A stretch of 64,000 nt of DNA from Bacteriovorax sp. BAL6_X (GCF_000443995.1 NZ_AUMC01000003.1:620001-684000), one strand, 5' to 3'; shown: positions 4,887 through 61,276, numbered from the stretch's first letter. A program made the numbers and translations. Notes: generated by a model from the letters alone, not told the origin.

Positions 4887-6017
4887 ATGAAGGCCCTAAT
4901 TTTATTTTTACTATTTTCAACGACTTATGCAGCAACTTTAGAAGTGATGTCTTATAACGTTGAAAACCTATTTGACACACAAAAGGATGAAGGAAAGAAC
5001 GACTGGGCTTACCTTCCAAAGAACACTAAGGGAAAGAAAGAAGCTTGTAAGAAAGTTTCTTCAAAGTATCGTCGTGATGAGTGTTTCTCGGCGGACTGGA
5101 CTCAAGAGAAGTTAAATTTAAAACTATCGCAAATTAAAGATGTGGTTTTAAAAGAAAGAAAGAAGCTTCCTGACTTATTAGTTGTTTCTGAAATTGAAAA
5201 TGAGAATGTTATCGGACAACTTGCAAAAGTTCTGGGTTATAAGAAATTTTATACTTCAAATTCACCAGACTACCGTGGAGTTGATCTTGCGGTACTTTTT
5301 AATGAAACAAAAGACTTTAAATACGTCTCAAAGAAAGAGCATGTTCTTAAAAGTGATTACCTAAAAAAGAGACCTTCTCGAAATATCTTTGAAGTGCAAT
5401 TCAAACTAGGGAAGAATGACCTTTATGTTTTTGCTAATCACTGGCCAAGTTTAGGAAACCCTGACGAAGCAAGAGTAACTGCCGCAACGACTCTAAAGGC
5501 AAGAATTGACGAAATCATGAAAAAGAATACGAAGGCATCTGTACTTGCTGTAGGTGACTTCAATACAATTCCAGATTTAAAGAAAGCTGGTAATAAGCAC
5601 CCAATGAGAGATGTTCTCTTAAAAGATGGATCAATTGTTGATGTCGAAAAAGTATTTAGATCTGAAAAGTCTAATTCAAAGAAAATAAGTTCAATGCCTC
5701 CTGGGACTTACTACTATGCAAGAAATTCTCAATGGAACCACCTAGACCGCGTCTTCGTTCCAAGAGTTATGCTAGGTGAGAAACATCCAGTTAGAATTGA
5801 TTTAAAGTCATATCAGATCTATGCTCCAGATTTTATTCGTCAACCACAACCACAAAGTGTTTTTGATGAAGATGTTGAAGAGATGAGAAATCGTGGATTT
5901 AAGATTGAAACGAAGAAGGTGCAAACAGCTCCAAATCGTTATGATCACTTAGCTACTAAGAAGGCCAAGGCGGGATACTCTGATCACTTCCCACTTGTTT
6001 TCGAATTAAATTACTAA
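4887..6017 (+). CDS. Secreted endonuclease/exonuclease/phosphatase (EEP) family protein
   Basis: The product (376 residues) starts with a short signal peptide (about residues 1-15, cleavage near TYAA). EEP-fold signatures follow in order: MSYNVENLF near the N-terminus (metal-binding Asn), VVSEIENE (metal-binding Glu), NHWPS (catalytic His), VGDFNT (Asp/Asn) and the terminal SDHFPL (Asp-His). The catalytic set is therefore complete. Family members cleave DNA, RNA or phosphate esters. As an exported protein it could degrade extracellular or prey nucleic acid or act on phospholipid headgroups, but the sequence does not decide which. A strong terminator follows directly. Confidence 0.85.
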   Translation: MKALILFLLFSTTYAATLEVMSYNVENLFDTQKDEGKNDWAYLPKNTKGKKEACKKVSSKYRRDECFSADWTQEKLNLKLSQIKDVVLKERKKLPDLLVVSEIENENVIGQLAKVLGYKKFYTSNSPDYRGVDLAVLFNETKDFKYVSKKEHVLKSDYLKKRPSRNIFEVQFKLGKNDLYVFANHWPSLGNPDEARVTAATTLKARIDEIMKKNTKASVLAVGDFNTIPDLKKAGNKHPMRDVLLKDGSIVDVEKVFRSEKSNSKKISSMPPGTYYYARNSQWNHLDRVFVPRVMLGEKHPVRIDLKSYQIYAPDFIRQPQPQSVFDEDVEEMRNRGFKIETKKVQTAPNRYDHLATKKAKAGYSDHFPLVFELNY

Positions 6018-31099: not shown

Positions 31100-31125
31100 G
31101 GGGCAGTAATGCCCCTGCTTTTTTC
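31100..31125 (+). terminator. Intrinsic terminator of the metal-efflux operon
   Basis: Stem GGGGCA/TGCCCC (31100-31105, 31110-31115), loop GTAA, followed by TGCTTTTTTC. It ends the rcnR-dmeF unit 34 nt after the stop codon. Confidence 0.85.
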
Positions 31126-31220: not shown

Positions 31221-34200
31221 ATGAAGAAGATATTTAAAAAGTCTTATATTCATATTTTATGCTTACAGCTGTTAATTTCGAGTTGTGTACCTGAAATTCA
31301 ACGTCGTGAAAATAGTCGCGGAGAGGTTCATGTAAGTAATATTAGTGTGCAAGGTGACAAGCTAAGAATCTTAGGTTCGAGTCTTCATAAGGTTGAAAAT
31401 ATTCGCATCACTGATAAGAGTGGAGCGACTTCAAATTTTTCAATTGGTTCGCAAAATGAAGGGGAGATCATAGCAGATGCACTTTCCAATACTCTTCTAC
31501 CTCTTAATCAAATTCTTACTATGACATTAGAGAGTGCAAGTGGTGCAAGTACATTTTCAATCAATGTTGACCTTCCTGATCTTGGAGCATCTCACGGACA
31601 GATTCTTCAATATAATGCCATCACTAGAAAGTGGGCGCCGGCCAATCAGCCAACATCTAGTGTGACTTCTGTTAATGGGAAATTAGGTGCAGTTAATCTT
31701 ACGGTAGATGATCTGTATGATGCAGACACAAGTGGTGCAATCTCTGGTTCAATCTTAAAATTCAACGGAACAAGTTGGGTTATTGGAACGGATGAAGGCG
31801 GTTCATCAACAAATGCAACATCAATTCACAATCGATTAGTTTCAAATATTTCACCAACTGATGGTCAGGCCCTTGTTTGGAGCAGTAGTAACTCATCTTG
31901 GGTTCCTTCGACAATCGCAAGTGGCGGTGGCGGCGGATCTGGTGAAGCTAATACCGTTTATACAACAGGTGGAACTTCTATTTTTAAACAAAAGGTTGGT
32001 AGTCAACTCCAGTTTAAAGGTCTCTCTCCATCATCTGATATCAATATTACTGAAGGGTCAAACTCACTTGGACTTCAAATAAATACAGGTAATGGTGCAA
32101 ACCAACTTCTAAGACTGGACTCTCTTGGAAGACTTCCTGCTATCGATGGTTCACAGCTTACAGGCATCTCTGGCGGAGGTGGTGGAAGCGGTGAAACCAA
32201 TACAATGTCAACGGCCGCAGGTGCTTCTATTTTCAAACAGAAGTCTGGGGTAGACTTTGTAATGCGAGGTATTTTAGGTTCATCTGACTTTGTTGTTAAT
32301 GAAAGTACTAATACAGTTGATCTACAAATTAATACAGCAAATGGTGCAAATCAACTCTTAAGACTTGATTCAAGTGGGCGCTTACCTGCTATTGATGGTT
32401 CTCAGTTGACAGGAATTGCTGCTGGTGGGGGAGACTCAACATTACAATCACGTGATGTATCGGCCGCAGCACCATCCAACGGTCAAGCTCTTCTTTGGAA
32501 TGATGTAAGTCAGCATTGGGAACCTGCTACAATCACTGCTGGTGGGGCCGGAGGAGAAATTAATACTGCCTCAAGTGCTGGTGGTGAAGCAATTTATCAA
32601 AATAAAGTAGGTTCAAATTTAGTCTTTAAGGGACTTACTAATACATCAGATATTTCCTTAACTGGAAATGCAAATGATATTCAAATTGGAATAAATACTT
32701 CGAATGGAGCAGGACAAATTCTTCGCCTTGATTCTTTTGGAAGACTTCCGGCATTAGATGGATCGCTTCTTACTGGTATCTCATCATCATCTTCAGGGGA
32801 TGCTGTTAGCTTACAAACAAGAGATATCTCTTTAACAGCGCCAACTGATGGACAGGTTTTAACTTGGAATAATACTTCTTCTGAGTGGGAGCCGCAAAGC
32901 CTTGCAGCAGCAAGCTCTGATGCCACAACTCTTCAAACGAGATCTATTTCAACAACAGCACCTGCTGATGGGCAGGCCCTCGTTTGGAATAATGCAACAA
33001 CTCAATGGGAGCCTCAGACAATCGTTTCTGGTGGCGGCTCAGGTGAGAATAATACGATTTCAAGTGCTGGTGGAGTTTCTCTTTTTAAACAGAAATCTGG
33101 AGTTGATTTAATTCTAAAGGGCCTTCAAGGCTCAACTGACTTTGCGATCTCTGGTAGTACTAACACTGTTGATCTTCAAATTAATACATCAAATGGTGCA
33201 AACCAACTTTTAAGATTAGATGCTTCTGGGCGTCTTCCTGCACTAGATGGTTCTCTTCTAACTGGAATTGCAGGTGGAAGCTCTGATGCTACGGCCATTC
33301 AGTCTCGTACTGTTTCTTCTGTTGCTCCTTCAAACGGACAGGCACTTTTATGGAATAGTACCAGTTCTCAGTGGGAACCAACAACAATCGTTACAGGTGG
33401 AGCTGGTGGGGAGGCCAATACTGCTTCTAGCGCCGGTGGAGAAGGGCTATTTCAAGCAAAGGTTGGAACAAATCTCGTTTTTAAAGGCCTTAGTGGCGGT
33501 GCGGACATTACATTAACTGGAAATACTAATGATGTACAAATTGATGTGACAACGACTAATACGGCAAATCAGCTGTTAAGGCTTGATGCTTTTGGGCGTC
33601 TACCTGTGGTTGACGGATCTCAGTTAACAGGAATTGTTACTTCTGATAATACAATTCAATCACGTGCTGTAGCTTCAACTGCGCCAACTGATGGCCAGGC
33701 CCTTGTGTGGAATAACACCGCTTCACAATGGGAGCCGCAAACGATTAGTGCTGGAGGAAGTGGAGAAGTTAATACAATTTCAAGCGCTGGTGGTGCGACT
33801 TTATTCAAACAAAAAACAGGAAGTGATCTTGAGTTAAAAGGTCTAACTGTAACAACTGATCTTGCGATAACTGAAAATGTAAATGATGTACAAATTGGAG
33901 TGAATACTTCTAATGGGGCCAATGAACTTCTTCGCCTTGATGGCTCTGGCCGTCTACCTGCAATCGATGGTTCTCAGCTGACAGGAATTTCTGCCGCTGG
34001 AGAAACGAATACAGCAAGTAATAGAGGTGGGGACTACGGGTTATATTCTCAAAAAGTTGCAAGTGATCTTCAATTTAAGGGCCTAACTTTTAGTTCTGAT
34101 TTTTCAGTAATTGACGCTGGGACATACTTAGATATCTCTGTTGGAAATACAAATGTTGGTGATGGACTTCTTCGTCTCGAATCAGATGGAAGCTTGCCAT

Positions 34201-35291
34201 CTCTAGATGCAACGAATCTTTACAACCTTCCTGCAAGTGATACAACCTTACAGTCTCGTGCGGTTTCGGCAAGTGCTCCAACGAATGGACAGGTATTAAC
34301 TTGGAATAGTTCATTTTCTGAATGGGAGCCAGGCGACCTCGTTGCTCCTGGTGATGATCTTGGAAATCATACAGCTACTCAAAACTTTCAAATTGGTGCC
34401 AACTATATTTCTTACTCAGGACTTGATGAAGGTCTTTATGTAAACCTAGGTGGTAATGTTGGTATTGGAACAAATATACCAGCTGCGGATCTTCACATTG
34501 TCGACTCTCATGCAGAAGTAAAAATTCAAGATAGTAATACAGGTATCTCATCTGAGGTAAATTTCACATTTCTTGCCGATGGTTCGGAAGCCGGCTTTGC
34601 TCTTTTAAATTCAAATTACGACTGGGCCGCTGACTTTCCAGATTCCTCTTGGTCAGATGTGATGTTATTCCACTCAGCTCCTGAGACTGCTAATGGAATG
34701 CGTATGCATGCCTTTGCTGGTGATATAAATCTTTCTGTTGGAGATGCAATATTAACTGATGTTGTAAATGTAAACGGAACAAATGCCAACGTAGGTATTT
34801 TAACGACTTCACCTAGTGCTTCTTTCGCCCTTGATGTAAATGGATCTGTTCGTGGGACTGCTGCATTTGATTCAACATCAGATGAGCGTCTTAAAAAGAA
34901 AGTAATGACAATTTCAAGTGAGATTTCTATTCTCGACAAAATTTCGCTTCTTGATGGTGTGTACTTCGAGTGGAGAAAGGATGAGTTTCCACAAAAGAAT
35001 TTTAAAGAGGGCAGAGATATTGGTGTCATTGCCCAGAATGTAGAGAAGGTCTTTCCTGAGGCCATTTCAAAAGATGAAAACGGATATTTAAGTGTTGCTT
35101 ACGCAAAATTAGTAGCTCCACTTATTGAAGGTGTTAAGAGTTTATTTTCAATTTCAAAGGAACAAGGAAGAAATATTGCTTCCCTTGAGGCCCGTACAAA
35201 ACAACTTGAAGAAGAGAATCAGATGCTTAAAGAAGCTCTTTGTGAAATGAATCCAAAAGCGAAGATCTGCCTCGCTAAAAAACCTAAGTAG
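31221..35291 (+). CDS. Giant surface fibre lipoprotein with tandem repeats and S74 self-cleaving chaperone domain
   Basis: 1356 residues. The signal peptide ends in lipobox ISSC (Cys about 22). Residues about 125-1040 are two kinds of repeat (see repeat feature), linked by Gly/Ser-rich stretches. Within them, VTSVNGKLGAVNLTVDDL (about 149-166) is a phage tail-fibre type motif. VGIGTNIPAADLHI follows near residue 1090, another motif common in phage fibres. The C-terminus is a Peptidase_S74 intramolecular chaperone: Ser1220 in S-D-E-R-L-K begins it, DIGVIAQNVEKVFPEAI follows, and the last 60 residues are a coiled coil. Autocleavage before Ser1220 would free a 137-residue tail after trimer folding. 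The design matches mosaic adhesive trimer fibres of Bdellovibrio and implies a trimeric, lipid-anchored adhesin. Monocistronic. Confidence 0.85.
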   Translation: MKKIFKKSYIHILCLQLLISSCVPEIQRRENSRGEVHVSNISVQGDKLRILGSSLHKVENIRITDKSGATSNFSIGSQNEGEIIADALSNTLLPLNQILTMTLESASGASTFSINVDLPDLGASHGQILQYNAITRKWAPANQPTSSVTSVNGKLGAVNLTVDDLYDADTSGAISGSILKFNGTSWVIGTDEGGSSTNATSIHNRLVSNISPTDGQALVWSSSNSSWVPSTIASGGGGGSGEANTVYTTGGTSIFKQKVGSQLQFKGLSPSSDINITEGSNSLGLQINTGNGANQLLRLDSLGRLPAIDGSQLTGISGGGGGSGETNTMSTAAGASIFKQKSGVDFVMRGILGSSDFVVNESTNTVDLQINTANGANQLLRLDSSGRLPAIDGSQLTGIAAGGGDSTLQSRDVSAAAPSNGQALLWNDVSQHWEPATITAGGAGGEINTASSAGGEAIYQNKVGSNLVFKGLTNTSDISLTGNANDIQIGINTSNGAGQILRLDSFGRLPALDGSLLTGISSSSSGDAVSLQTRDISLTAPTDGQVLTWNNTSSEWEPQSLAAASSDATTLQTRSISTTAPADGQALVWNNATTQWEPQTIVSGGGSGENNTISSAGGVSLFKQKSGVDLILKGLQGSTDFAISGSTNTVDLQINTSNGANQLLRLDASGRLPALDGSLLTGIAGGSSDATAIQSRTVSSVAPSNGQALLWNSTSSQWEPTTIVTGGAGGEANTASSAGGEGLFQAKVGTNLVFKGLSGGADITLTGNTNDVQIDVTTTNTANQLLRLDAFGRLPVVDGSQLTGIVTSDNTIQSRAVASTAPTDGQALVWNNTASQWEPQTISAGGSGEVNTISSAGGATLFKQKTGSDLELKGLTVTTDLAITENVNDVQIGVNTSNGANELLRLDGSGRLPAIDGSQLTGISAAGETNTASNRGGDYGLYSQKVASDLQFKGLTFSSDFSVIDAGTYLDISVGNTNVGDGLLRLESDGSLPSLDATNLYNLPASDTTLQSRAVSASAPTNGQVLTWNSSFSEWEPGDLVAPGDDLGNHTATQNFQIGANYISYSGLDEGLYVNLGGNVGIGTNIPAADLHIVDSHAEVKIQDSNTGISSEVNFTFLADGSEAGFALLNSNYDWAADFPDSSWSDVMLFHSAPETANGMRMHAFAGDINLSVGDAILTDVVNVNGTNANVGILTTSPSASFALDVNGSVRGTAAFDSTSDERLKKKVMTISSEISILDKISLLDGVYFEWRKDEFPQKNFKEGRDIGVIAQNVEKVFPEAISKDENGYLSVAYAKLVAPLIEGVKSLFSISKEQGRNIASLEARTKQLEEENQMLKEALCEMNPKAKICLAKKPK
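31590..34345 (+). repeat. In-frame protein repeats (A and B modules) inside the fibre gene
   Basis: Module A (about 80 residues) runs from an NTxSSAGG start to LLRLDxxGRLPAxDGSQLTGI. It occurs seven times, with its GRLP core near 32128, 32378, 32740, 33227, 33594, 33947 and, degenerate, 34180. Module B (about 35-40 residues) reads LQSRxVSxxAPTDGQALVWN...SQWEPxTI and occurs seven times, with two degenerate copies at the N-terminal end. The DNA copies are well diverged although the protein is conserved, so the repeats are old and under protein-level selection. Confidence 0.85.
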
Positions 35292-35407: not shown

Positions 35408-35440
35408 AAAAGGGAGCTATTAAGCTCCCTTTCTTTTTAT
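35408..35440. terminator. Bidirectional intrinsic terminator between fibre gene and acnB
   Basis: Stem AGGGAGCT/AGCTCCCT (35411-35418, 35423-35430) with a 4-nt loop. A T-rich tail (TTCTTTTTAT) follows on the plus strand, and the A-run on the left gives a T-tract for minus-strand transcripts. It lies 17 nt after the acnB stop and probably serves mainly acnB. Confidence 0.85.
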
Positions 35441-40965: not shown

Positions 40966-43113
40966 GTGGAGTATAAATATATTTACACCATTCTTATCTT
41001 CATCTTAGTTCTCGAAGGTTGTCAAAAACGCAGTCGAACTATTAGCTCTGTAGGCACAAATCTGCAAGTTACCAAAGGTGACTTAACAGCACATCTTGTC
41101 TCAAGAAGATTAAATGGACAAAGGGTTGTGATTGAAGGGCAGTGTTCAAATGATATCCCGGTTTACTTTATTTCAAATAATCTTGTAAGTAACCAAAGTA
41201 CATACACTCAATGTCTGGACGGTGAGTATAGAAAGACATTATTCTTCCAATCAAATATCGTTGGCAATCAAGATGTATTTGTCACACAAGATGGCCTTTC
41301 TATTGTTGTTAAGATTCCCAATGTCGTTACTCGTCGACCGGACAAGGTTATTGTTGACACTCCTATGGAAGGCTACTTCTATGGACGAACTATTTATGTC
41401 TCTGGACGTTGCCAACCAAGTGGGACTATTTTTATTCGCGGAAGCTATATTGAGGACTATGTTAAAACTGCCGGATGTCCAAATGGGCTTTTTCTAACTC
41501 CAATATATTTTTCTAAGATTAATGCTGAAGCAATAGAGACCCACCTTTTTATTAATCAAGTAGATGCTTACGGTAATAGTTCAGACGTTATAATTAAGAC
41601 GATTAAGTTTAGAAATGATGACCATTCGATCTTCTTAAGTGAGTCAATTGTTGGTGTTCTTGATGATACATTAGAGGTCAAAGGCAGCTGTAAGGGGTTT
41701 GAACGAGTTAGTGTCGATGGGAATGTTGTAAATTGTTATAATGATCGTTTCACTTATAACCTCAACTTATTACCACGAAAAAAAACAGGACGCATACTTT
41801 ACCAGATTCCAGTAGAGGGACTGAAGGGGGACTTTCGATCAAATCTACGAATGCTTTTCTATTATTATAAAGTTGTTGAAAGCTCACCGCACTTTTTTTC
41901 TCCACGAGGAAAGTATGATGAAAGTGCTAAGGGGAGGCATATTATAAGTGGTACTTGTGGAATTACTTATACAAATGGAAATGTACGTCTCTATACAAAA
42001 AAGTCTGAAAATATATTACGAGATGGTCACAATATTCCTCTAAGACAAATTGATGGTGTCTTTATTGTTTTCCCTGATGAATATGACTTAGATGGAGAGA
42101 CAACAGTCTTTGCGGAATGTAATGATTTTTATATCGATTATAAAACTAATCATTTTTCAACCACTTTCGATTATATTCCCTCAAGTGAAAAGAGACTCGC
42201 TCCAAATGAAGTAGATGTGTATCGCATGGGCCATAAGATTGAAGGAAGATGTTCGCAAGGAAGTTCGGTACGATTACTAGATATAGTTAACGAGAATGTT
42301 GAACAGGCCAAGTGTATAAATGGCAATTTCTCAATTGATGTAATATCCTCACAAATATCCGGTAAAAACCAATATGAAATCTTTGAAGTTAATTTGTTTG
42401 ATAACTATCAAGGGGCCAAAGAACTAATTGATATTAACTATAATCACTCAGTTGCCTTTCCTTATCGTTTTATTCAAGAGTCACCTGTTCCTGGGTGGGG
42501 GTCTAAGGTATCGCCTATTCGTTTTTATTGGAATTATCCCTATAAATCAGAGGTTAATGATATTTATTATGGCTATTATTCCAAGAATAGCTACATTCAG
42601 GTCGAATGGATGAAATTACCACAAAATACCAATCAGTTGCTTCTCGATGGGCATGAACTGCATAAGCTAGGCTATAATGAATGTGATGAAGTTCAGGTCT
42701 ATTTTCAAACTGTTGATAAGAAAAATAGGAAATCATTTATTATTGAAACAAACCCAATTCGTTTTGACTTTACTCCACCTGATGAAGTCGAAGTCGAGAA
42801 GATCGATTATTCACCATTATTTAGAAAACAATTACCCAAATTTCATTTTAAAGATACCGATGATAATTGCGTAAACGATGAAAATTTATTTTATAAATAT
42901 ACTCTCTATCAGGTTGTCTTTTCTAAAGAGAATGAAGAGGAAATTGTAGATCGAGTAACAATTGATGAATTTACTGTTTCTAAACTGCTGAAAGCGAGTT
43001 TATTCAATAAAAAGTATGACCTGGAAGGGAATTATCAGGTAGGCGTGACAGTATTAGATCGCGGTCAAAATGCAACGAAAGAATATTTATCAGTTATTTT
43101 CTCATGGAAGTAG
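40966..43113 (+). CDS. Lipoprotein with repeated Cys-loop beta modules
   Basis: 715 residues from a GTG start. The signal peptide ends in lipobox VLEGC (Cys19). The chain contains at least five modules of the form [V/I]-x-G-x-C ... C-x-[N/D]-G-x-[F/Y]. Examples are C60/C83 (VIEGQC...QCLDGEY) and C149/C171 (VSGRCQ...GCPNGLF); later copies start at VKGSC, ISGTC and IEGRC. Each is probably an Ig-like beta domain with one disulfide. Residues 510-715 form a different C-terminal beta-rich region. It is probably a surface- or periplasm-exposed structural or binding protein. Confidence 0.7.
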   Translation: MEYKYIYTILIFILVLEGCQKRSRTISSVGTNLQVTKGDLTAHLVSRRLNGQRVVIEGQCSNDIPVYFISNNLVSNQSTYTQCLDGEYRKTLFFQSNIVGNQDVFVTQDGLSIVVKIPNVVTRRPDKVIVDTPMEGYFYGRTIYVSGRCQPSGTIFIRGSYIEDYVKTAGCPNGLFLTPIYFSKINAEAIETHLFINQVDAYGNSSDVIIKTIKFRNDDHSIFLSESIVGVLDDTLEVKGSCKGFERVSVDGNVVNCYNDRFTYNLNLLPRKKTGRILYQIPVEGLKGDFRSNLRMLFYYYKVVESSPHFFSPRGKYDESAKGRHIISGTCGITYTNGNVRLYTKKSENILRDGHNIPLRQIDGVFIVFPDEYDLDGETTVFAECNDFYIDYKTNHFSTTFDYIPSSEKRLAPNEVDVYRMGHKIEGRCSQGSSVRLLDIVNENVEQAKCINGNFSIDVISSQISGKNQYEIFEVNLFDNYQGAKELIDINYNHSVAFPYRFIQESPVPGWGSKVSPIRFYWNYPYKSEVNDIYYGYYSKNSYIQVEWMKLPQNTNQLLLDGHELHKLGYNECDEVQVYFQTVDKKNRKSFIIETNPIRFDFTPPDEVEVEKIDYSPLFRKQLPKFHFKDTDDNCVNDENLFYKYTLYQVVFSKENEEEIVDRVTIDEFTVSKLLKASLFNKKYDLEGNYQVGVTVLDRGQNATKEYLSVIFSWK

Positions 43114-59416: not shown

Positions 59417-61276
59417 ATGGGCTCATTAAAGATAAGTAGCAAAACAAATAATAAATCAACTAGCAAATCGAATTTAAATTATTCTAAATTTAATCAAATT
59501 AATGGTAAACATCCACTCCAAGAGAGTTGCCAAGATTCCTTTATTACTTACCAGGTTAGAAAGAGGGATGGGGGAAGTGTTGCTTACTTTAACTTTGAGT
59601 TAGCAAAGGAGATGGGCCTAATCGCTAAGGAACATCAAAATACCCTTACTAAAGAGCTTGCTCAAAAAATTCTCGATACATTTTCTATCGTGATCATAAA
59701 TGAATATGATATTGAAAACGGTGTAGAATATCCAAAAGATGAAATCTTACCGAATCGTTATATGGCAACACGCTATCTTCAGCTACAACACCCGAATAAG
59801 CAAGGAAAGACCTCAGGTGATGGACGCTCAATATGGAATGGAACAGTCAAACACAATGGCCTTACTTGGGATATTTCAAGTCAGGGCACAGGGGCAACGA
59901 AACTTTCTCCTGCAACTCATATCCAAAATAAGTTCTTTAAAACCGGAGACCCGTCAATTTCATACGGTTGTGGCTACTCAGAGTTTGATGAAGGGCTTGC
60001 AACTCTTATGTTTTCAGAGGTTATGCAAAAGAATAATTATGAGACTGAGAGGTGTCTTGCCATTATTAAATTTAAAGATAATATCTCAATCAACGTTAGG
60101 GCCAATAGTAACTTAATTAGGCCTTCACATATGTTCAATCATCTAAAGCAGGCCAATTATGACGCTTTAAAAGATATTGTGAATTATTATATTGATCGCC
60201 AGAAAATGAATAATGAATGGCAGAAGGTACCTAAAACAACTAAGGCGAGATACCGCTACTTCTTAAAGAAGCAAGTTGAGGTCTTTGCAAAGCTTGCTGC
60301 CAATTTTGAAGATGACTATATCTTTTGTTGGCTGGATTGGGATGGAGATAATATCCTTATGAATGGGGGAATTATCGACTATGGTTCAATTAGGCAGTTT
60401 GGGCTCTACCACCATGAATATCGCTTTGACGATGTTCAACGCTATTCCACAACAATTAAAGAACAAAAGGATAAGGCCAAGTATATTGTTCAGACCTTTG
60501 TGCAGATTGTGGATTTTTTAGAAACGAAAGAAAAGAAACCTATTGCTGAATTTGCAGCAAGTGAGTATCTTGAACAATTTGATGAAATTTTTGAGACTCA
60601 AAAGAAATATAATCTAATTTCAAAAATAGGGATTTCTCCGAAATATCATGATTGGTTAATTCAAAAAAAATCTCAAGAAATTGAAGAGCTACAAAGATCC
60701 TTCTATTATTTCGAAAAAGCGAAATCAAGCTTCGGCCTCTACGAAGTTAGTGATGGAATTTGTTGGGATGCAATTTTTAGTATGCGCGATATTCTTCGAG
60801 AGTATCCTCAAATGATATTGAGTCGAGGAGAGTGGATTACTCGTGAGGAGTTTATTAATATCGCTAAGTCTAGTTATGCAAGTAAGGCCGATTTAGAGAT
60901 CAATTCATATCGTGCGAATAAAATCGATACTTTTCAAGATTCTTATATTAAGTTGCTTCACTTGGTCTCAAAGAAATCAAAGAAGAGATTTGATGATGTA
61001 CTATTAGAAGTTGTTATGCGCTCTTCAATTATTAATAAATATGAAAGAGTAACAGGGGATAGTATTGCACGAATTGTTGAATCAATGATGAAGAAGTATA
61101 AGAAATTTGATCCGCAAACGATTTTCAATGTGGTTCATGACTTTAGGGAGCATCAAACATTCGACCCTGATAATATCAGTCCGAAGAGTGAGCGAGTTGC
61201 GAATGAGAAGAAGCATCTAAAACCTATCGTAAAAGAGCTTTTAAAAATTGTAAGAGATTACAGAGAAGGCATCTAG
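59417..61276 (+). CDS. Divergent SelO/YdiU-like protein AMPylase (pseudokinase)
   Basis: 619 residues. SelO-type order of motifs: YFNFELAKEMGLI near the start, SGDGRSI (134-139), an SSQGTGATKLSP segment (154-165) where SelO has LKGAGRTPYSR, a Glu in LATLMFSEVM (Glu201), and DWDGDNILMNGGIIDYGSIRQFG (Asp311-Asn312, Asp321) where SelO has the metal-binding TDN and DYGP. SelO proteins transfer AMP from ATP to protein hydroxyls. The nucleotide-binding Lys of KGAG is Gln156 here, with Lys162 nearby. The C-terminal half (from about 340) is helical. An S51 peptidase gene starts 3 nt later. Confidence 0.7.
   Translation: MGSLKISSKTNNKSTSKSNLNYSKFNQINGKHPLQESCQDSFITYQVRKRDGGSVAYFNFELAKEMGLIAKEHQNTLTKELAQKILDTFSIVIINEYDIENGVEYPKDEILPNRYMATRYLQLQHPNKQGKTSGDGRSIWNGTVKHNGLTWDISSQGTGATKLSPATHIQNKFFKTGDPSISYGCGYSEFDEGLATLMFSEVMQKNNYETERCLAIIKFKDNISINVRANSNLIRPSHMFNHLKQANYDALKDIVNYYIDRQKMNNEWQKVPKTTKARYRYFLKKQVEVFAKLAANFEDDYIFCWLDWDGDNILMNGGIIDYGSIRQFGLYHHEYRFDDVQRYSTTIKEQKDKAKYIVQTFVQIVDFLETKEKKPIAEFAASEYLEQFDEIFETQKKYNLISKIGISPKYHDWLIQKKSQEIEELQRSFYYFEKAKSSFGLYEVSDGICWDAIFSMRDILREYPQMILSRGEWITREEFINIAKSSYASKADLEINSYRANKIDTFQDSYIKLLHLVSKKSKKRFDDVLLEVVMRSSIINKYERVTGDSIARIVESMMKKYKKFDPQTIFNVVHDFREHQTFDPDNISPKSERVANEKKHLKPIVKELLKIVRDYREGI

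Follow-up and report, generated by a model that had tools for sequence, protein, structure and literature searches.

Results

The window, the whole stretch of 64,000 nucleotides that was analysed, covers 620001-684000 of contig 3 in the 3.23-Mb genome of Bacteriovorax sp. BAL6_X. Its GC content is about 37%. A preliminary description had taken the source for a low-GC relative of Bdellovibrio, and the genome does have a low GC content and belongs to the Bdellovibrio phylum. An open reading frame on the plus strand (31221..35291) starts with ATG and encodes a fibre protein of 1356 amino acids, in which every motif named in that description was located. The fibre gene is chromosomal, with a metal-sensing repressor and a cation efflux gene on one side and aconitase B on the other. 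Terminator-like hairpins flank it at 31100-31115 and at 35409..35432 (plus strand), the second separating it from the convergent acnB, so the gene is probably its own transcription unit. In a genome of the same genus (G004), no fibre gene adjoins acnB. No secretion gene that would account for outward export of a lipoprotein fibre was found linked to the gene. Elsewhere in the window, the frames at 40966-43113 (715 aa) and 59417-61276 (619 aa) had no Pfam match at E 0.001.

The protein, whose features all lie on the plus strand, begins with a lipoprotein signal peptide (aa 1-21, MKKIFKKSYIHILCLQLLISS followed by C; 31221..31283). The lipobox, LLISS before Cys22 (31284..31286), lies immediately downstream of a hydrophobic stretch, and the same layout was found in all 52 relatives with the TIG-like base described below. 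Because the rows of the class alignment (A1) were cut at the cysteine, its invariance in A1 is circular, and the profile was therefore rebuilt from the Ig-like columns alone. Among matches of this Cys-free profile with a complete 5' end, the lipobox was recognised by script in 49 of 52 and by eye in the other three (PAC, IGC, and WSC). The lipobox noted earlier in this protein is thus genuine and kept across the class. The residue at +2 is Val, and Asp was found there in 0/52 lipoprotein-base proteins with a complete 5' end; by the +2 sorting rule, which comes from E. coli, an outer-membrane destination is probable. We infer from these sequence features that Cys22 is lipidated and that the protein is sorted to the outer membrane.

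The signal is followed by a predicted base domain (aa 37-115; 31329..31565). The AlphaFold (AF2) model of the base had a mean pLDDT of 85. Foldseek gave no match to it at E 0.001 or better; alignment with VIA-align placed IPT/TIG domains on top (best Z 8.6, 2.7 Å over 77 residues), with plexin A1 IPT, SGBP-B, Bacova_02650, CGTase, NFAT, and EBF3 as the leading matches. A separate sequence-profile search also returned an IPT/TIG protein, Bacova_02650, first (E 0.005). No Pfam family, TIG included, matches aa 1-142. As the Z scores are modest (near 8; up to 8.6) and Pfam is silent, we call the base IPT/TIG-like only; the model predicts an Ig fold of this kind.

Next come, in order, a first GQIL...W.P fibre module (aa 121-141; 31581..31643), the VTSVNGKLGAVNLT motif, the repeats, the tip, the S74 domain, and a coiled coil. 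The phage-fibre motif VTSVNGKLGAVNLTVDDL (31662..31715) and the VGIGTNIP motif were found as previously reported, at aa 148-165 and aa 1080. In the shaft (aa 201-1041; 31821..34343), seven A units of about 85 aa alternate with B units of about 40 aa (GQxLxWN..W.P). The long tandem repeats described earlier therefore exist at the protein level; at the DNA level they are too diverged, and Tandem Repeats Finder returned no rows. The suggestion that the repeat types may be new did not hold, since they match known phage-fibre families, namely PHROG 9627 (six stretches, E 1e-22), 11585, and 4120.

The tip region (aa 1048-1219; 34362..34877) carries two capping-loop-like motifs. Motif 1, NVGIGTNIPAADLH (aa 1079-1092; 34455..34496), fits RVGVGTTAPTSALH of Bd3182 well (PMC10769870), and motif 2, NVGILTTSPSASFALDV (aa 1190-1206; 34788..34838), fits FFGINTAAPAYNIH of the same protein with a small insertion. 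The chaperone follows at 34878..35144, with a predicted cut before Ser1220. Residues 1215-1356, where the preliminary description had placed an S74 domain, contain a match to Peptidase_S74 (PF13884; aa 1220-1281, E 3.4e-12; the score of 46.9 bits exceeds the cut-off, which is 22). The catalytic S-D-x3-K is complete (S1220, D1221, K1225, within SDERLK at aa 1220), with IGVIAQ at aa 1267; S-D-K is invariant across 43 alignment rows, and SD..K is present in 68/68 S74 domains. The sequence and weak coiled-coil Pfam matches at aa ~1310-1345 indicate a coiled coil towards the C-terminus of the chaperone (aa 1309-1345; 35145..35255). Against solved structures, the tip+S74 profile (A3) matched myelin regulatory factor (MYRF, 7dc3; 2.5e-20) and a phage long tail fibre (6f45), and it reached the tips of mosaic adhesive trimer (MAT) fibres of Bdellovibrio, 8ond (Bd2133, 2e-15) and 8ojn/8onb/8onc (7e-10). 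The latter three, at 152 aa, agree with the Bd3182 tip in size. A PDB search with the tip as a single sequence gave no match; the family profile alone reached the MAT tips. In MAT fibres, S74 cleavage exposes the tip cleft (PMC10769870), and this account, together with the S74 residues and the MAT-tip match, supports a similar putative route of folding and cleavage here.

Fibre repeats and S74 domains are also phage features, and the gene might be read as a tail-fibre gene left behind by a phage or prophage. In agreement with this, 147 phage records match the fibre, mostly at the tip and S74, besides the PHROG tail matches. However, even the best phage matches span no more than 13-14% of the protein's length, with identities near 31%, and no phage record matched the lipobox or the base. 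The tested neighbours of the gene are cellular (cation efflux, metal-sensing repressor, aconitase B, and peptidase M20), with no phage structural gene among them, and the base class is found across many genera, a single genome having as many as 16 copies. A phage origin of this kind is highly improbable, and the prophage tail fibre was rejected as a candidate on the neighbours and the base.

We then compared the fibre with the MAT fibres of Bdellovibrio bacteriovorus, all 21 of which are defined by a β-rich base of about 130 aa directly after a Sec signal (Caulton et al., 2024; PMC10769870). The paper lists 13 S74 proteins for strain HD100, with Bd3182 having 922 aa and Ser782 in SDARLK (PMC10769870). 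The genome that we took as HD100 likewise has 13 S74 proteins, and a 922-aa member of the set carries Ser782 in SDARLK, an agreement that supports this identity. Read by eye, a base of the form LTYQGRILKxDGTPLEYxNVSF... is clear in 11/13 of these proteins and diverged in the other two (L130, and L133, which is Bd3182). Those whose starts were within the fetched sequence have a Sec signal and never a lipobox. The genome of the window encodes six S74 proteins. L008 and L011, both complete, have a Sec signal and then a KLGYSGRLVxxNGTPVTGTPDLKFDLFYS domain; as the same base was recovered in HD100, this Sec-signal type is the MAT base. Two others, the present fibre and L009, have the lipobox and Ig-like start, and the N-terminus of L010 is that of a type IV prepilin (Pfam N_methyl). 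Relatives from other genomes of the family sort into the same start classes.

The fibre could still belong to the MAT superfamily as an ordinary member, since its tip, capping-loop-like motifs, shaft, and S74 domain are MAT-like and its nearest tip sits on a MAT base. The base argues otherwise. The MAT-base profile (A2) did not match the fibre gene and matched three other places in the same genome instead, the third of them on a contig edge. When the two base profiles were aligned with hhalign, they matched over 34 columns only, in the later GQVL..W.P fibre module, which is the sole part aligning between the two base classes. No protein matched both bases, so the two sets are disjoint. Of 37 MAT-base matches, three were flagged for a lipobox, and in all three the cysteine lay upstream of an ordinary signal-peptidase-I site. 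The model of the MAT base (L008) showed no clear structural relative, in line with the MAT paper, and IPT domains were absent from its structural match list, which is not in itself proof of a different fold. Hence the link to Bdellovibrio MAT fibres drawn in the preliminary description stands for tip, shaft, and S74; assignment to the same class does not, the MAT base being replaced by a lipobox and an IPT/TIG-like domain. Ordinary MAT membership thus appears rather improbable, and the sequence comparisons indicate that the lipoprotein base marks a second fibre class beside the MATs.

Profile A1 of the lipoprotein base matched in 54/129 genomes (a handful of them through the shared fibre module only) and in 26/48 genera of the order, at up to 16 places per genome. 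The MAT-base profile matched in 28/129 genomes of the order, a lower bound for diverged forms since A2 was built from this family. When 369 genomes from across the phylum were scanned, strong matches to the lipoprotein base came from a few further families (e.g. 4e-25, 6e-45); in the Bdellovibrio family it reached only E 1e-5 or worse, and HD100 was not among the matches. By these profiles, the class is essentially absent from Bdellovibrio. The full protein gave one distant match in genome contigs, in a Bacteroidetes MAG. Our literature search, with the supplementary fibre lists of the MAT paper outside its scope, found nothing on lipoprotein S74 fibres in predators; the class is widespread and, provisionally, apparently undescribed. 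Fibre genes of one base class were also seen in tandem clusters (L049, G018:C1:1411000-1422500; L086, G136:C1:3944500-3959500; and G114:C2), which suggests local duplication and tip shuffling. In the genome of the window, one small contig (L007, G000:C5:1-5933) consists almost wholly of an S74 fibre gene cut short (1803-aa open frame) and the start of a second MAT-base gene (base match 5639-5932); it is probably a repeat-driven assembly break.

The two classes have tips in common. In a BLAST of the last 330 aa, the best tip match lay on the other base for 15/79 proteins. The closest tip to that of the fibre belongs to a MAT-base protein of the same genus (L058; 41% over 313 aa), and another pair across bases, L069/L103, shares 51% over 270 aa. 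On a tree of 68 S74 domains, the lipoprotein label needs 15 changes against a shuffled mean of 22.6, with most forks weakly supported and the strongly supported branches forcing 2 changes only. A non-S74 tip (QCSFSTTTTG..YRF.PAN) is carried by L106, a MAT-base protein of the Bdellovibrio family, and by the lipoprotein-base proteins L113 and L118 from elsewhere, at 56-64% identity. These comparisons indicate that the lipoprotein and MAT classes exchange tips. By profile, S74 was present in 31/47 lipoprotein-class proteins with a complete end, in a sample fetched partly by S74; other ends are F5/8 type C, FGE-sulfatase, and domains without a Pfam name.

Two lipoprotein-class fibres, L137 (G055:C92) and L136 (G084:C104:50500-70000), end in variable regions of diversity-generating retroelements (DGRs), with a template copy nearby. 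Mismatches fall at template adenines in 15/15 and 14/18 cases, respectively, and each gene adjoins a reverse transcriptase (Pfam RVT_1, E 6e-23 and 2e-18). No reverse transcriptase or DGR was found in the window's own genome.

A prepilin-like N-terminus (FTLAEVMVAAGLIGVLSM) is combined with a C-terminal S74 in L010 (G000:C3:119500-124500, plus strand, gene from ~2361), and likewise in L088 (544-5300; G136:C1), where G136 has three such genes in tandem. Such pilins, capped by S74, appear to be a third kind of anchor.

Discussion

Our results point to a lipid-anchored, surface-displayed, trimeric adhesin fibre of a class set apart from the MATs by its base and swapping tips and shafts with them, a reading to which we give a probability of roughly two in three. 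Signal peptidase II would expose Cys22, which would be lipidated and probably held in the outer membrane, as no Asp stands at +2. The IPT/TIG-like Ig domain would form the base of the fibre, from which three chains may wind into a long shaft of phage-fibre repeats ending in a β tip whose cleft is flanked by two capping loops. S74 would template trimer folding of the tip and then release itself by a cut before Ser1220, which would uncover the binding cleft. In the manner of MAT fibres, the tip may then recognise a ligand of another cell, which would most likely be prey.

The fibre is probably used by this Bdellovibrio relative to touch other cells. Alternatively, it may stay in the periplasm or mediate adhesion to self, to surfaces, or to free glycans. 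Bacteroidetes IPT-type lipoproteins, with SGBP-B and Bacova_02650 among the best matches of the base, bind glycans, and predation by this organism is itself inferred from kinship with Bdellovibrio. Against this, the tips are exchangeable with those of MATs, among which one has been found to bind glycans of prey (PMC10769870), and DGR-varied tips suggest changing targets. We consider a role other than prey recognition unlikely, though less so than ordinary MAT membership; the diversified tips, including the DGR variable regions, argue for ligand binding.

As a tentative extension, which we regard as possible but somewhat short of even odds, Bacteriovorax-type relatives may carry prey-recognition fibres on swappable bases (lipid and IPT, MAT, or prepilin) that draw on one tip pool, with some lipid-anchored ones rewritten by DGRs. 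Such a predator would possess a self-mutating recognition arsenal. The MAT paper leaves open how MAT fibres stay on the predator surface, and a parallel lipid-anchored class would be one answer; importantly, a lipid anchor makes surface attachment testable through one cysteine. With this work, the fibres known from Bdellovibrio gain counterparts in a sister order that is large and has received little study, and recognition tips are connected with diversity-generating retroelements; the DGR-varied fibres of this phylum merit separate study.

The fibre resembles several known systems in part. SGBP-B and Bacova_02650, surface lipoproteins of Bacteroidetes, are lipidated. As predicted for the fibre, they place an IPT/TIG Ig stalk after the lipidated cysteine, but they lack the fibre shaft and S74, both of which are present here. 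Myelin regulatory factor (7dc3) gave the top-scoring solved S74/tip match of profile A3, yet it is a eukaryotic membrane-bound transcription factor. The S74 tailspikes and long tail fibres of phages (K1F endosialidase, the T5 L-shaped fibre; 6f45) share the chaperone, the self-cleavage residues, and the fibre repeats, whereas the present gene is cellular, has a lipobox and base domain, and has no virion genes nearby. The S74 group of MATs, such as Bd3182, shares the long repeat shaft, the C-terminal S74 with S-D-x-x-x-K, the presence of several fibres per genome, and exchangeable tips, and its capping-loop motifs have look-alikes in the fibre. Further marks of the MAT superfamily are chains intertwined as a trimer, surface display on the predator, and relocation into prey. 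In contrast, MATs have a Sec signal and a base of about 130 aa with a putative surface partner, where the fibre described here has a lipobox, an IPT/TIG-like domain, and a predicted lipid anchor.
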